Shown here: positions 11,764-18,600 of the stretch, piece by piece
Layout: each line of letters starts with the position of its first letter
Numbering within the stretch: the stretch's first letter is position 1
Source of the DNA: Myxococcaceae bacterium
GTDB lineage: Bacteria > Myxococcota > Myxococcia > Myxococcales > Myxococcaceae
DNA length: 64,000 bases
Reading direction: 5' to 3'
Assembly (NCBI GenBank): GCA_016793095.1
Contig: JAEUJQ010000024.1
Coordinates: 1-64,000 of the forward strand
Notes under the pieces: generated by a model
Told to the model about the DNA's origin: nothing
The model's input: only the letters and a program-made list of their open reading frames with translations
The model's database searches: none
Program-made: the position numbers and the translations under genes

Positions 11764-12609
11764 GTGGGCCTCGGAGACTCGGTCAAGGACAGCCTCAGGC
11801 AGTGGACGCTCGCGATGGGCGGCGAAGATCTCGACGAGCGCCTGCGCGGCAATCGCTCGGAGAACGAGTACGGGGTCGATCCGTTCGGCTTCTCGCTCGA
11901 CTATGCGCTCTCGGCGGTCGGGCCGCTGCTCTGGCTCTACAAGCACTACTTCCGCGCGCGCACGTTCGGCATCGAGCACGTGCCGGCGGGTCGGGTGCTG
12001 CTCGTCTCGAACCACGGAGGCCAGCTGCCCTTCGACGGCATGATGATCGGCTGCGCGATCCTCACCGAGGCGAAGCCGCCCCGCGTCGTCCGCTCGATGG
12101 TGGAGAAGTGGGTCGGCTCGCTGCCGTTCGTCTCGACGTTCTTCTCGCGCATCGGCCAGATCGTCGGCACTCCGGAGAACTGCCGGCGTCTGCTCGAGGC
12201 CGACGAGGCCATTCTGGTGTTCCCCGAAGGCGTGAAGGGCATCTCGAAGCTCTACGCGCAGCGCTACCAGCTCCAGGACTTCGGGCTCGGCTTCATGCGG
12301 CTCGCGCTCGAGACGAAGACGCCCATCGTGCCGGTGGCGGTGATCGGCAACGAGGAGCAGGCGCCCGCGCTGCTCAACCTGAAACCCATCGGCAAGCTCT
12401 TCGGCATGCCGGCCTTCCCGATCACCCCGTACGGCCTGCCGCTGCCCCTCCCCACGAAGTACCGCATCTACTTCGGTGAGCCGCTCCACTTCTCGGGCCG
12501 CGGCGACGACGAAGACGCCGAGCTCGAGAAGAAGGTGAAGGTGGTGAAGGGCGCGATCCAGTCGATGCTGGAGAAGGGCCTGGCCGAGCGGAAGGGGATC
12601 TTCTTTTGA
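11764..12609 (+). CDS. Lysophospholipid acyltransferase (PlsC/MGAT-like)
   Basis: The 281-residue protein begins at GTG 11764. It carries the LPLAT signature: a catalytic His in NHGGQLPFDG, then FPEG (motif III) and the VPVAVIGNEE block (motif IV). The spacing between His and Asp is HX6D rather than the usual HX4D of PlsC, as in MGAT/DGAT-like bacterial acyltransferases. It probably transfers an acyl chain to a lysolipid or glycerolipid at the inner membrane. Its stop overlaps the start of the SDR gene (TTGA), so a joint lipid-modification pathway is likely. Confidence 0.85.
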   Translation: MGLGDSVKDSLRQWTLAMGGEDLDERLRGNRSENEYGVDPFGFSLDYALSAVGPLLWLYKHYFRARTFGIEHVPAGRVLLVSNHGGQLPFDGMMIGCAILTEAKPPRVVRSMVEKWVGSLPFVSTFFSRIGQIVGTPENCRRLLEADEAILVFPEGVKGISKLYAQRYQLQDFGLGFMRLALETKTPIVPVAVIGNEEQAPALLNLKPIGKLFGMPAFPITPYGLPLPLPTKYRIYFGEPLHFSGRGDDEDAELEKKVKVVKGAIQSMLEKGLAERKGIFF

Positions 12610-13541
12610 GCGGCGACGGCGTGGTGGTGGTGACGGGCATCTCGGGGAACCTGGGCCGCGTGGTGGCGAAGCTGCTCCACCGCACCGAGCGCGTGGCGGG
12701 CATCGACCGGCGGCCGTTCATCGGCAAGCCGAAGGACGTCGAGCACTTCCAGATCGACCTGCGGAAGAAGAAGACCGACGAGGTCTTCCGCCGGTTGCCG
12801 GTGAAGGCCATCGTGCACATGGGCATCATGCACGACCCGCGCATGAGCGCCGAAGATCACCACTCGTTCAACGTGCTCGGCACCACGCGCGTGCTCGAGT
12901 GCGCGGCGAAGTTCGGCGTGAAGAAGCTCGTCGTGCTCTCGAGCGCGAACGTCTACGGCCCGTCGCCCGAGAACTCGAACTTCCTGACCGAGGAGGCGCC
13001 GCTGATGGCGGCGAGCCGCTTCCCGTCGGTGCGCGATCTGATCGAGGTGGACATGCTCGCGCACGGCTTCTTCTGGCGGCAGCCGAGCGTCGAGACGGTG
13101 GTGCTGCGGCCGGTGCACATCGTCGGCCCCACCATCAAGAACGCGCCGTCGAACTACCTGCGCCTCAAGCGGCCGATGACGCTGATGGGCTTCGACCCGA
13201 TGGTGCAGCTCATCCACATGTTCGACGTCGGCGCGGCCCTCGTGCGGGCGCTCCAGCCGGGCCTCAAGGGCGTCTACAACGTCACCGGGCCCGGCGAGGT
13301 GCCGCTGTCGGCGTGCTTCAGGGAGCTCGGCGCGCGGCCAGTGCCCGTGCCGCACCCGCTCGCCCGCGGGCTCCTCTCGACGATGTTCCGCTACCGGCTC
13401 GCGAGCTACCCCCCTGAGGAGCTCGACCACATCCAGTTCCTGTGCATGGTGGACGGCGGTCGATGGCGGAAGGAGACCGACTGGCAGCCTGCGTTCTCGG
13501 TGCGCGACACCATTCGCGCGGTGGTGTCGGATCTCTCCTGA
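12606..13541 (+). CDS. NAD-dependent epimerase/dehydratase-like SDR
   Basis: The 311-residue extended SDR protein starts at TTG 12606, overlapping the acyltransferase stop. The Rossmann motif is TGISGNLG, and a strand-4 LSSANVYGPS block precedes where the catalytic Tyr should be. The expected YxxxK is not visible; the corresponding stretch reads RDLIEVDML. It may therefore bind NAD(P) without classic dehydrogenase chemistry, or use other residues. The C-terminal RWRKETDWQP block is typical of the family. The pairing with the acyltransferase suggests lipid or sugar-lipid metabolism. Confidence 0.8.
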   Translation: MSGDGVVVVTGISGNLGRVVAKLLHRTERVAGIDRRPFIGKPKDVEHFQIDLRKKKTDEVFRRLPVKAIVHMGIMHDPRMSAEDHHSFNVLGTTRVLECAAKFGVKKLVVLSSANVYGPSPENSNFLTEEAPLMAASRFPSVRDLIEVDMLAHGFFWRQPSVETVVLRPVHIVGPTIKNAPSNYLRLKRPMTLMGFDPMVQLIHMFDVGAALVRALQPGLKGVYNVTGPGEVPLSACFRELGARPVPVPHPLARGLLSTMFRYRLASYPPEELDHIQFLCMVDGGRWRKETDWQPAFSVRDTIRAVVSDLS

Positions 13542-13665
13542 TCCGCACCGGTTTTCACCCAACCATGACGCGGCTGTCAGGATCGCCCGTGGGTTTGTCG
13601 CAGTCTGTGAAGCGTCCGATCGGGTAACGCCTCGATTTGATTCCGCGAATGTACTCAACCCAACG

Positions 13666-13681
13666 TGGCACCGGTGTTGCT
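13666..13681 (+). promoter_or_regulatory. Sigma-54 (-24/-12) promoter
   Basis: TGGCAC (13666-13671), a 5-bp spacer and TTGCT (13677-13681) match the sigma-54 consensus exactly, with GG and GC 12 bp apart. Predicted +1 is near 13692. It lies 125 bp after the SDR stop and drives a short transcript that ends in a strong terminator before the ECF sigma gene. An enhancer-binding protein should be needed; no clear enhancer repeat is visible in 13542-13665. Confidence 0.85.
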
Positions 13682-13691
13682 CAAGAAAGCC

Positions 13692-13770
13692 TTCGGTAAG
13701 GGGGTTCCATAGGGGAACTCCCGACGCCCGTCGCCTCGGCCGGCCCCGAGACGACGGGCGCTTTTTTTTT
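13692..13770 (+). ncRNA. Candidate sigma-54-dependent small RNA
   Basis: The predicted transcript is about 79 nt, from +1 of the sigma-54 promoter to the T-tract. It holds two hairpins: a 9-bp stem 13700-13708/13714-13722 with a 5-nt ATAGG loop and one G-U pair, then the terminator stem. No open reading frame fits. Myxobacteria have a developmental sRNA, Pxr, of similar size; whether this is a homologue cannot be decided without alignment. Confidence 0.65.
13725..13770 (+). terminator. Rho-independent terminator
   Basis: A 9-bp arm 13725-13733 (CGCCCGTCG) pairs with 13752-13760, and CTCGG 13735-13739 pairs with 13746-13750, separated by one mismatch. Nine to ten T residues follow at 13762-13770. 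It is the clearest intrinsic terminator in the window. It ends the candidate sRNA and insulates the sigma-factor gene. Confidence 0.92.
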
Positions 13771-13865
13771 GTGCGCGAGCCTCGCCGGACCCCGGTAACC
13801 GGCGGCCAGGGCTCGTCGTAACGAGGTGGATGACGACGATCGCGCTCTGGTGGAAGGAGCCAGCC

Positions 13866-14417
13866 ATGCTGGCGAGCGCCGCCGACGACTCGGACGAAGG
13901 GTTGATGGCGCGGTTCCAGTCCGGTGAGCGCGCCGCCTTCGATGCCCTCTTCCGCCGGCATGCGGCGCCGCTGACGAGCTACCTCGCCCGCCTGACGAAC
14001 AGCGCCGCGGCCGCCGAGGACGCGGTGCAGCACACCTTCTTGTCGGTGTTGCGCTCGAAGGGCCAGTTCCTGCGCGGGCTCCGGTTCAAGCCCTGGCTCT
14101 ACGCGATCGCCTCGAACGCGGCGCGCGATCGCCACCGTCGGACCCGACGCGAGGTGAGCGCAGGGGACGACCCGGTCGAGGCCGGGCTCGACGCCGTGCA
14201 CGGTGATCCCGGCTTGCGGCGTCGGTTGATCGCCGCCCTTCAGCAGCTCCCGGAGCCGCAGCGCGAAGCCGTCGTGCTCCATCGCCTCGAGGGGTGGAGC
14301 TTCCCTGAGATCGCGGACGCCGTGGGCGCCAACGAGACCACGGTGAAGGTGCGCGCGTTCCGCGGCACCCAGCGGCTGCGCGAGCTGCTTCAAGACGCGT
14401 GGGAGGTCGAGCCATGA
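13866..14417 (+). CDS. ECF-family RNA polymerase sigma factor
   Basis: The 183-residue protein has region 2 (FDALFRRHAAPLTSYLARL to DAVQHTFLSVL) and region 4 (LPEPQREAVVLHRLEGWSFPEIA, then ETTVKVRAFRG), in the usual ECF order. ATG 13866 was chosen because an AAGGAG ribosome-binding site lies at 13854-13859; an in-frame ATG at 13830 lacks one. The gene ends in an ATGA overlap with an NrsF-like membrane protein, which probably holds it inactive at the membrane. The target promoter is unknown. Confidence 0.93.
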   Translation: MLASAADDSDEGLMARFQSGERAAFDALFRRHAAPLTSYLARLTNSAAAAEDAVQHTFLSVLRSKGQFLRGLRFKPWLYAIASNAARDRHRRTRREVSAGDDPVEAGLDAVHGDPGLRRRLIAALQQLPEPQREAVVLHRLEGWSFPEIADAVGANETTVKVRAFRGTQRLRELLQDAWEVEP

Positions 14418-15064
14418 GTACTCCAGCACCCTTCGGCCGGGCCCCCGCGGCGCTCCCCGCGGAGCTCGAAGCGCGGCTCACTCAGGCCCTCGCGGCAGAG
14501 CACGCGGCGCCCACCCGACCCTGGTGGCGAGACGCGGCGATCTTCGTCGGCGTGACGGTGGCGCTCTTCGGCCTCGGCAGCCTGTTGTTCAACGCCGCGC
14601 TGCCGCCGCTCGAGGTCGAGGGCGGGGTGTGGGCGCAGGCGGTCGCGCTGCTGGTGGTGTCGCTCGTCGCGGGGGTCGCCGGCCTGGCTCCATGGCCGCA
14701 GCGCACCTCGAGGCCGCTGATCCTCGGCGGCCTGGCAGCGGCGACGGTGGTGGTGACGCAGCTGGTGTCGCTGACGGTCGGGCCGCTCAAGCTGGTGATG
14801 GGGTGCTTCCTCTGGGAGATCGCGTGCTCGCTCGTCCCGGCTGCGCTGGCGCTGCTCGCCGCGCGTGCCTACGCCCCGCGGCTCTCGCGCGCGATGGTGC
14901 TGGGCTGGGCCGCCGGCACGCTGGCCCTCGCGGTGATGCAGCTGAAATGCCCGCACCGGGACGTCGGCCACGTGCTGCTGCTGCACCTGCTCCCGCTCGG
15001 CCTGGTCGTCGCCGCGACCGTGCTGGTGCGGCGCCGGTTGTCCACGAGCAGCTACGCCCCCTGA
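14414..15064 (+). CDS. NrsF/DUF1109-like membrane anti-sigma factor
   Basis: The 216-residue protein has a soluble N-terminus of about 40 residues and then six predicted membrane helices. The C-terminal KCPHRDVGHVLLLHLLPL block resembles the conserved Cys/His region of DUF1109 (NrsF) proteins. In Caulobacter, NrsF is the anti-sigma for SigF. Start ATG 14414 overlaps the sigma-factor stop, which fixes the start and argues for 1:1 co-expression. The conserved Cys suggests redox or metal sensing, but this is inference. Confidence 0.75.
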   Translation: MSTPAPFGRAPAALPAELEARLTQALAAEHAAPTRPWWRDAAIFVGVTVALFGLGSLLFNAALPPLEVEGGVWAQAVALLVVSLVAGVAGLAPWPQRTSRPLILGGLAAATVVVTQLVSLTVGPLKLVMGCFLWEIACSLVPAALALLAARAYAPRLSRAMVLGWAAGTLALAVMQLKCPHRDVGHVLLLHLLPLGLVVAATVLVRRRLSTSSYAP

Positions 15065-15065
15065 C

Positions 15066-15521
15066 TCACGCTCCGCCGTCAGCCGCGGGGGCCTCGTCCT
15101 TCTTCGGGGCCGGCGCCAGCTCGGGGAACGGGCCGTCGTCCTGGCTCTCGAGCCACCACTTCCCTTCGCGCCAGACGAAGACGCTCGTCACCGTCGCCGT
15201 CTTCTCGACGTTCGAAGGCAGGCGGTACCAGTTGATGTGCGAGACGACCTCGGCGGTCCCGTCGCTCGAGATCTTCGCGTCTTCGAGATCGAAGTTGGTG
15301 ACGAACAGGTCCTTCTCGTCGCCCGCCCTGGTCCGCGCCTTGATGAACGACGTGCGCCGCTCGGGGACGATCAGCTCGGCGGCGCCGCGGAAGTCCTTCC
15401 ACCGGGCGCGCTGGTGAAACGCCTCGATGCTGGGCTTGAGCTCGTCGACGTCGGGCTTCGCGCGCAGGCCCGCACAGGAGAGGCCCAACCACAGGAACAG
15501 CAGCGTCGTCCGTCGCGTCAT
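15066..15521 (-). CDS. Small lipoprotein, NTF2-like size
   Basis: The 151-residue protein begins at ATG 15521 with a short signal and a GLSC lipobox. The mature part (SIEAFHQRARWKDFRGAAELI, then VFVWREGKWWLES near the end) has the length and alternating pattern of an NTF2-like/cystatin-type fold, but I cannot assign a family. It converges with the NrsF-like gene, one base apart. Confidence 0.75.
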   Translation of the reverse strand: MTRRTTLLFLWLGLSCAGLRAKPDVDELKPSIEAFHQRARWKDFRGAAELIVPERRTSFIKARTRAGDEKDLFVTNFDLEDAKISSDGTAEVVSHINWYRLPSNVEKTATVTSVFVWREGKWWLESQDDGPFPELAPAPKKDEAPAADGGA

Positions 15522-15645
15522 GGCGGCGCAGGGTAGCACCCGGTCTCTGGCCGGCCACTCCGTGCCCTGCCCATTGTCCAGTGGCCGTCTGCACAGGGAA
15601 GGGTATGGTTCCGCGGCTGCTCCAGCCCCGTTCCGAAAAACGCCC

Positions 15646-18600
15646 ATGTCGAAGTCGATGGTTGAGAAGTACGAGCAGATGCTCTCGCAGGATCCCACCT
15701 CGACCGTCTTCGTCGAGCTGGCGCGCGCCTATCTGGACAAGGGCGAGAACGACAAGGCCATCGAGGTCTGCAAGCAGGGGTGCACGCACCACCCGGAGTC
15801 GGTCGCCGGACGGGTGCTGTGGGGCAAGGGGCTCATCAACAGCGGCCGGGCTGCCGAGGCGATGCAGCAGTTCGACGCCGCAGCGAACATCGACAAGGAC
15901 AACCCCCACGCCTACAACCTGATCAGCGAAGTCCTGCTGCGGAAGGGCCTGTACCGGTCGGCGCTGCCGATCCTGCGGAAGGCCTCGACGCTGCAGCCCA
16001 ACGACGGGCGCATCAAGCAGTGGCTCGAGCAGGCGCGAGCAGCCCTCGCGGGTGGGCCGGCGCCGATCCTCTACGACGAGACCTCGGTCACGCAGGCCCT
16101 CCCGTCGGCCGTTCCCGCTGCGCCTGCGCTGGGCGACGGGCCCGCCGCCGCGACCTCACCGGTGGTGCCTGTCGTCGCGGCGCCCGCTGCCCGGCCCAGC
16201 GGACCGAGACCCCCAGCCAGCACGGAGCAGCACCCCAGCGGCCGGCATGACGCGGCGCCCGCTGCCCGGCCCAGCGGACCGAGACCCCCGGCCAGCGCGG
16301 AGCAGCACCCCAGCGGCCGGCACCACGCGGCGCCTCCGTCACCGGGCGACCAGCGACCCAGCGGCCGGCACCCTCAGGCCCAGACCGCCGAGCTGCCCGC
16401 CCCGCCCACCGACTCGTCGCCGTCCGGCGAGTTCCCCAACGCCGACCCCGACGTGTTCGCCGCGTTCGCGCCCGCGAAGCCTGACCCGCGCGCCGAGCCC
16501 ACCGTCGTCATGTCGGCCCTGGGAGAAGAGCGCACGACCGAGGTTCCGACGCAGACCGCTCAGGTGCCCGAGGCGTGGCCGTCAGCGCCCCGCCCGATGG
16601 ATCACCGGCCCGGCCCGCCCGTGCCGACCGGCGATCTGCCGATCGTCGGGGGCAGCGTCGCGGCGCGCAGCGACGACAACCGCCCGACGATGGAGCTCCC
16701 CGTGCCGGCGCACGGCTCGGGTCCAGTCGTGGTGGGCGCCCTCGAGGATCGGACGGCGACCGCCGAGCTGCCGATTCCCGTCGCGAGGTCGGCGCCGCCG
16801 GTCGGCGAGGCGCCCGACCCGTTCGCCGCCCTCACCGGTCGCACCGAGTCCACCGAGACGTTCCGGGGGCTGACCAGCACGTTCCAGGCGCTCGAGGAGG
16901 CCGAGGCGGCTCCGCTCCCGCTGCCGCTGCCGCCCGCACCGCCAGTGCCGAGCGACCCCAACCTGCCGTCCGTCATCCCCTCCGACGAGCTGCAGCTGCC
17001 GCCCGCCACGCCAGCCGCGCCCGCGAAGCCGCCGGGCCTGCTCGACGACGTCGTCTCAGCGCAGAACGAGGTGCCGACGAGCGAGTTCCAGATGCCGGGC
17101 ATGAACCAGGTCCCGGCGAGGGCCGCGCCCGCACCCGTCGCGGCGCCCCGGGCGGGTTCGGGCGGGCTGCTCGACGAGATCCCCGATCACTTCGAGCCGC
17201 CGTCGGCCGTCGAGGCGCCGCGCGTCGAGTTCTCGACCCAGGCCACCGAGGCCATCGCGCGCGAGTACGAGCGCGAGCTGCGCGAGAAGCTGCAGGCGAA
17301 GGTGCAGGAGAAGACCTTCTTCCAGAAGCACGGCGTCAAGCTCGGCGTCGGCGCCGCGGTGGTGGTGGTGGGCATCGCGCTGGTCGGCTCGTTCCTCTAC
17401 ACGCGGCAGCGCCACGGCGGAGAGAACCTCGAGTCGGCGCTGGCGAAGGGGCTGCTGGCCATCAACGCCGACACGAAGGAGCAGTACACGCTCGCCCTTC
17501 AGTCGCTCGAGCAGGCCCTCTCGATGGACGAAGGGAACGCCGATGCGTGGGCCAACATCGCGCTGGCGAAGGCGATCCTCTACGCCGAGCACGGTGGCGC
17601 GCTCGCCGATCGCACCGCGGCGCAAGACGCGCTCAACAAGCCGAAGGTGCGCGAGGCTCACCCCGAGATCGCCGTGGTGGTGGACTACCTCGTCGCCGAC
17701 GCGGCGGACCTCGCAGGGCGGCGCCAGCAGCTGCTGGGCTCGGAGCTGAGCCAGAGCCTGGTCGAAGCCCAGGCGGGGCGGGTGCTGCTGACGGACAGGA
17801 AGCTCGACGAAGCCTTCAAGCACCTGCAGCGCGCGACCGAGCTCAACAGCCGCAACCTGCGCGCCCTGGTGACGCTCGGCGAGTACTACCTGCTCTCGGA
17901 GGACTACGAGAGCGCAGCCCGCATTCTCTCCACGGCCGAGACGCTGTCGAAGTACCACCCACAGCGGGTGATGGGGCTCGCCGAGGCGCGGCTCGAGCTC
18001 GCCCGCGAGAGCCAGGAGGCGCTCGCCGATCTCGAAGGGCTGCCGGCGAACGCCGCGGTGCGTGAGGCGCTGAAGGGCCGCTACACGCTGCTGCTCGGCC
18101 GCGCACAGTCGGCGGCGGGAAGACACGACGACGCGGCGAAGACGCTCACCGAGGGAATGGCGGCGAACAAGGACCTCGCCTTCGACTTCGAGATGGCGCT
18201 CGGCATGGCCGCGCGCAACGCAGGCCGCATGGCTGAAGCGCAGAAGGCCTACGAGGCGGCCATCGCGCTCCGCCCGAAGAGCGAAGAGGCGAAGGAGGGG
18301 CTGGGCCGCGTCCTGCTGGCGCGCAGCCGCGAGAAGGAGCTGCTCGAGCGCTTCAACAAGCCCGACGACAACCAGCGCAAGGTGGCGCTCGTGCGCGGCA
18401 TCGCCGCGGTGCGCCTCGAAGACCCCCGGCGCGCGCGCGCGGAGTTCGACCGCACCCGGGTGAGCGGGAAGTACCCCGCCGAAGCCGTCGTCTACCTCGC
18501 CCTCATCGACGCGGCGGAGGAGAGCGGTGACAAGGCCGTCCAGGCGCTCGAGAAGCTCGTCGCGACGCAGAAGCGGCACAAGGCCACGGCGCAGATCGCC

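Follow-up and report, generated by a model that had tools for sequence, protein, structure and literature searches.

The question raised by this locus is whether a short intergenic stretch that begins with a sigma-54 promoter and ends in a terminator is a gene for a small RNA (sRNA) in its own right and, if so, what such an RNA might do. A sequence-only reading of the window, by which we mean the whole 64,000-nucleotide stretch of Myxococcaceae DNA that was analysed, had proposed an exact -24/-12 promoter match, a transcription start near 13692 followed by a 9-bp hairpin and a strong terminator, and an absence of any fitting open reading frame. The promoter lies at 13666-13681 as described, and no sequence other than TGGCACCGGTGTTGCT comes within 1 mismatch of the consensus anywhere in the 64 kb (features are collected in Table 1). 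By itself this motif proves nothing, because approximately 1.3 matches with at most 1 mismatch are expected by chance in DNA of this length. The predicted transcript folds as had been claimed, with a free energy of -44.0 kcal/mol and a z-score of -3.7, and 0 of 200 shuffled sequences were as stable. What places the element beyond chance is the conservation of its promoter, stems, and loops in relatives.

Table 1. Coordinates of the predicted sRNA gene, its control region, and conserved neighboring genes in the window.
Feature	Position	Strand	Basis or remark
NAD-dependent epimerase gene, conserved upstream neighbor	12606..13541	+	PF01370; conserved synteny
Putative enhancer (UAS) ATGACGCGGCTGTCAG, CTGACA-N4-TGTCAG palindrome	13565..13580	+	first T of promoter lies 101 nt downstream; 2 mismatches
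IHF-like site TAACGCCTCGATT	13625..13637	+	motif match; 1 mismatch to YAANNNNTTGATW
Sigma-54 -24/-12 promoter TGGCAC-N5-TTGCT, TGGCACCGGTGTTGCT	13666..13681	+	exact match; GG-N10-GC core kept in relatives
Predicted sRNA transcript, 79 nt	13692..13770	+	start inferred from promoter; fold
Stem-loop 1, 9 bp, 23 nt, loop AUAGG (family AUNGG)	13700..13722	+	fold; both-sided changes in 8/9 pairs, three families
Terminator hairpin, 14 bp, apical sequence CGGCCGGCCCCG invariant	13725..13760	+	fold and conservation
T-run (nine T) of intrinsic terminator	13762..13770	+	sequence
Putative lipoprotein-like gene, convergent	15066..15698	-	adjoins sRNA in most other genera; no Pfam match

By blastn, for which the loop letters were not a criterion, the element was found in 39 of 60 related genomes. 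A search that did use the loop letters as a criterion returned, among others, named records of Myxococcus, Corallococcus, Pyxidicoccus, Archangium, Hyalangium, and Citreicoccus. A covariance model derived from the element and weighted toward the loop letters matches 95 of the 96 genomes of the window's family (family f1 of our genome sample, which we read as Myxococcaceae) and all 83 family genomes of at least 90% completeness and at most 5% contamination, and in a 195-genome sample of the phylum it also matches 1 genome of sister family f2 and 5 of sister family f3. The reduced genomes of genus g20 (2.1-2.7 Mb) retain both RNA and promoter, and the leader from the predicted start to hairpin 1 varies across loci from 7 to about 107 nt. 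One genome has an additional copy of the RNA (L134, G013:C6:375228-375288), diverged in sequence and located elsewhere, that has a sigma-54 promoter and an enhancer of its own.

Examined as a structured noncoding RNA, the element has compensatory base changes above those of controls. In the family f1 alignment of 54 distinct cores, two-sided changes occur in 13 of 23 base pairs, and paired cells or a covariation score as high as those observed were reached in 0 of 500 shuffles; once the f2 and f3 copies are included, covariation extends to 16 of 23 pairs, and pairing holds in 97% of cells. The closing pair of loop 1 itself varies, C-G being replaced by A-U or G-C, whereas the loop reads AUNGG throughout, bar one T-for-G change in one genome. 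At the apex of the terminator hairpin, CGGCCGGCCCCG is unchanged across all 34 aligned copies. That CGGCCGGCCCCG is a generic terminator loop was rejected because, followed by a T-run, it is confined to copies of the element in the 1.45 Mb of DNA scanned, some of these having slightly different flanks. Among its checks, the sequence-only reading had named a covariance-model search, compensatory changes within the stems, and conservation of promoter and stems in related genomes, and these support it.

Its statement that no reading frame fits also agrees with the family as a whole, since neither a conserved start codon nor a conserved frame was found across 39 copies of the element. One frame is open in 38 of the 39, which is unsurprising at high GC, and we rejected coding potential given the lack of a conserved start and the fact that the sequence changes are explained by covariation. 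Searches of the window and of seven loci from relatives gave no Rfam 15 family at or above its gathering score. A 20-bit match of the Burkholderia RNA ncS035 (RF02870) over the terminator region, versus a gathering score of 79 and with many nonpairing positions, was set aside as chance.

The control region is conserved along with the RNA. A GG-N10-GC core is found in 39 of 39 elements examined, the window's included, most of them with at least 10 of the 11 consensus bases. Upstream, the CTGACA-N4-TGTCAG palindrome that we designate the putative enhancer has a best match of at most 2 mismatches at 28 of 39 loci, versus about 0.5% of shuffled upstream regions. The distances from the promoter follow the helical repeat, clustering in steps of roughly one turn near 91, 101, and 112 nt and, where a second palindrome is present, near 147 and 157 nt. 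Between enhancer and promoter in the window lies the IHF-like site; such sites, with at most 1 mismatch, occur at 14 of 39 loci (versus 1.1% of shuffles) and usually precede the promoter by 41 or 52-54 nt. The palindromes of the window's genus are weaker, with 2-4 mismatches, and in genus g20 the upstream sequence differs and the enhancer is absent. Three g20 loci (L130, L131, and L132) carry two TGTTGCAttTnGCA-like repeats at the enhancer's expected place. A -24/-12 promoter with GG and GC ten bases apart, an enhancer, and an IHF-like site are all present as sequence motifs, and together with the covarying stems they support the earlier proposal of a sigma-54-dependent, enhancer-dependent sRNA gene. 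The sigma-54 gene itself, rpoN, is reported to be essential in M. xanthus. As judged from sequence, positions 13565-13770 almost certainly constitute an independent gene of this kind.

The genomic neighborhood offers two other ways of explaining the element. Family-wide, the gene order is PlsC-like acyltransferase, epimerase, sRNA, and convergent lipoprotein-like gene. In the window, positions 13830-15064 hold an ECF sigma factor gene followed by an NrsF-like gene whose score falls just under the Pfam cutoff. The ECF gene is on the same strand as the sRNA and begins 60 nt beyond it, an arrangement that recurs in most of the genus, and from this position the element could be taken for a cis-acting terminator or attenuator leader of the ECF operon. 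This is highly improbable, since in other genera the downstream gene is convergent and no adjoining ECF gene was found, yet promoter and RNA are conserved. The proximity to an ECF/NrsF pair that had been pointed out earlier is thus correct for the window, but we rejected a functional link because the pair separates the sRNA from the lipoprotein-like gene only in the window's genus, and we regard the adjacency as incidental. Alternatively, the RNA could be an antisense or 3′ UTR pairing partner of the convergent gene, which in most genera lies tail to tail at a distance of 26-224 nt. We consider this unlikely as well, although less so than control of the ECF operon, because in the window's genus the distance grows to 1.3-2.3 kb, because f3 showed no such gene close to the element, and because invariant loops do not need overlap. 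The element's surroundings differ in sister family f3, so the RNA does not depend on any one neighbor.

A further candidate identity, raised in the sequence-only reading together with the comparison that would address it, was homology to Pxr. Pxr of M. xanthus and other Cystobacterineae resembles the element in being intergenic and sigma-54-driven, in forming stable stem-loops with a terminator-like hairpin at the 3′ end, and in occurring in the same group of bacteria (PMC5684412, PMC5568312). Some genera have tandem paralogs of Pxr (PMC5568312); the element, too, has tandem copies in one genus. However, a Pxr query reconstructed from the primers printed in PMC5568312 matches other, separate loci in 20 of the 60 relatives; G028 carries both RNAs, Pxr at 1.33 Mb and the element at 2.36 Mb, and a Pxr-like copy is present elsewhere in the genome from which the window comes. 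Pxr has three stem-loops with different loops and sits beside the NtrC-like regulator gene pxrR, whereas the element has two hairpins between an epimerase and a lipoprotein-like gene; the two have no common sequence, and tandem Pxr paralogs each have their own promoter, unlike the element's tandem units, which have one in common. Because the Pxr query finds other loci in genomes that also have the element, the element is not Pxr: at the level of sequence, orthology is already refuted, and that this RNA is Pxr or a direct homolog of it controlling the switch to development is extremely improbable. The Pxr-like sRNA of the window's genome (L255, G000:C65:4500-10000) has a possible sigma-54 promoter of its own.

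Most genera carry a single unit of the element. In genus g23 (Myxococcus/Pyxidicoccus), all sampled genomes have one sigma-54 promoter followed by 2-4 tandem units that repeat every 71 nt (L045, L057, L062, L065, L068, L076, and L081), the array of M. xanthus consisting of two units. Most internal units have GATTCTTGTA or GTTTCTTGTA at their end, and the last unit has GTTTCTTTTC. This weakening of the internal T-tails suggests partial read-through, by which the arrays may yield RNAs of several lengths. One Myxococcus-type array (L065, BNCN01000011.1) is in a record labelled Comamonas sp. KCTC 72670, which is probably a mislabelled or contaminated genome.

The enhancer provides a way to look for genes that could respond together with the sRNA. 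Exact CTGACANNNNTGTCAG is rare, with 14 sites in six genomes versus 0 for the reversed control, and in M. xanthus AM003 (G116, the genome of array L057 as judged by contig position) the 18-base form of the enhancer, allowing at most 1 mismatch, has two sites in the genome, both upstream of the sRNA. Enhancer and sigma-54 promoter also precede a homologous putative lipoprotein gene in seven genomes, 78-79 nt apart in G028, G060, G087, G088, G009, and G019, and 103 nt apart in G037, which belongs to another family. The product of this gene has a lipoprotein-like signal sequence and matched no Pfam family; among 40 relatives sampled, the gene was found in only 6, none of them of the window's genus. 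Since it has the same enhancer and promoter as the sRNA, the sequences make a dedicated activator regulon for the two likely. The same combination stands before other secreted or lipoprotein-like frames at L186 (G087:C2:1562543) and L165 (G088:C1:2616360), which are possible further members.

As to the activator itself, 5-7 bacterial enhancer-binding proteins (bEBPs) are kept in the small genomes. A group with FHA-GAF-AAA-HTH architecture (orthologs G053_L211, G044_L202, and G026_L239; in the window's own genome at G000:C69:132761) is strongly matched in 54 of 60 relatives, and not at all in G025 of genus g20, whose enhancer has changed. The group is, however, also present in families where no sRNA was detected, and the 12 loci checked show no such enhancer near the bEBP's own gene. 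By phyletic pattern this group is a candidate activator, as a lead only. The known M. xanthus enhancer motifs of NmpR, GCGCA-N5-TGCGC (PMC11841059), and Nla28, CT(C/G)CG(C/G)AG (PMC9765219), both differ from CTGACA-N4-TGTCAG.

If these features operate as they do in other sigma-54 systems, an enhancer-binding protein would occupy the palindrome, IHF would bend the DNA, and sigma-54 RNA polymerase would start from the promoter to give an untranslated RNA of approximately 79 nt ending at its own terminator. The two hairpins would then present AUNGG and CGGCCGGCCCCG to a partner, which could be an mRNA, another RNA loop, or a protein, and, with the putative lipoprotein gene as regulon mate, the sRNA would, within an envelope-related sigma-54 response, be the arm that represses or tunes. 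Taken as a whole, an enhancer-driven sigma-54 sRNA of this kind is the best explanation and a probable one, although its parts differ in strength. Action in trans through the loops has a good likelihood, because the stems drift freely and the loops do not. An envelope-related tuning role is the likeliest function given that a lipoprotein gene has the same enhancer and promoter, and we put it forward tentatively, as something close to an even matter.

What the loops might contact is constrained by their sequence. Within the terminator hairpin, GGCCGGCC is an invariant, self-complementary, GC-only palindrome of eight letters, a poor seed for choosing specific mRNAs in GC-rich genomes, so loop-loop or protein contacts are serious options. 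A narrower form of trans action would be a protein sponge, in which the hairpins titrate an RNA-binding protein and arrays add sites, as in CsrB/RsmZ or CrcZ. The 2-4 units under one promoter in g23, the loop sequence that stays invariant while stems covary, and the lack of a reported Hfq homolog in myxobacteria (PMC5568312) would fit such a sponge, but most genera have a single unit, the loops do not contain the ANGGA core of CsrA-type sites, and the protein partner is hypothetical; we think it rather unlikely. A CsrA/RsmA sponge in particular was rejected, since the loops are AUNGG and CCGGCC, with no repeated ANGGA. Slightly more doubtful still is a model with the terminator loop as the active part, in which GGCCGGCC would kiss its own copies or a matching RNA loop, and the g23 transcripts of 2-4 units with weakened internal terminators would be a multivalent RNA made in steps.

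GlmY/GlmZ, Qrr1-5, CrcZ/CrcY, and NrsZ are sigma-54-dependent sRNAs of gammaproteobacteria. Like the element, as far as its motifs indicate, they use sigma-54 polymerase, an enhancer-binding protein, and often IHF, but they have no recognised relation to it in sequence or structure, and the element's hosts have no reported Hfq. The LhrC family of Listeria comprises multicopy sRNAs with a functional terminator loop and an envelope-stress regulon. It is a possible model, by analogy, for how the element might work, although it belongs to another phylum and differs in its promoter type, its C-rich loops, and its separate promoter for each copy. In the myxobacterial sRNA literature consulted (a review and the Pxr papers), Pxr is the only sRNA described by name, and a 2020 survey by Whitworth and Swain is cited as reporting tens of ncRNAs in M. 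xanthus (PMC8538405). Our best reading of the sequences is that the element represents a new, widely conserved family of sigma-54-dependent sRNAs, which may overlap transcripts of that survey. The family is ordinary in kind and unusual in its invariant terminator loop and its tandem arrays.

For the biology of these bacteria, it matters that, by blastn, the element is found in more of the searched genomes than the Pxr query (39 versus 20 of 60), that it has been retained in genomes reduced to about 2 Mb, and that it has its own enhancer. The two-unit array of M. xanthus places it in a genetically tractable model, and the locus, its mutable bases, and its regulon mate offer an entry both to how sRNAs act in bacteria without a reported Hfq and to what a family-wide sigma-54 circuit is used for.
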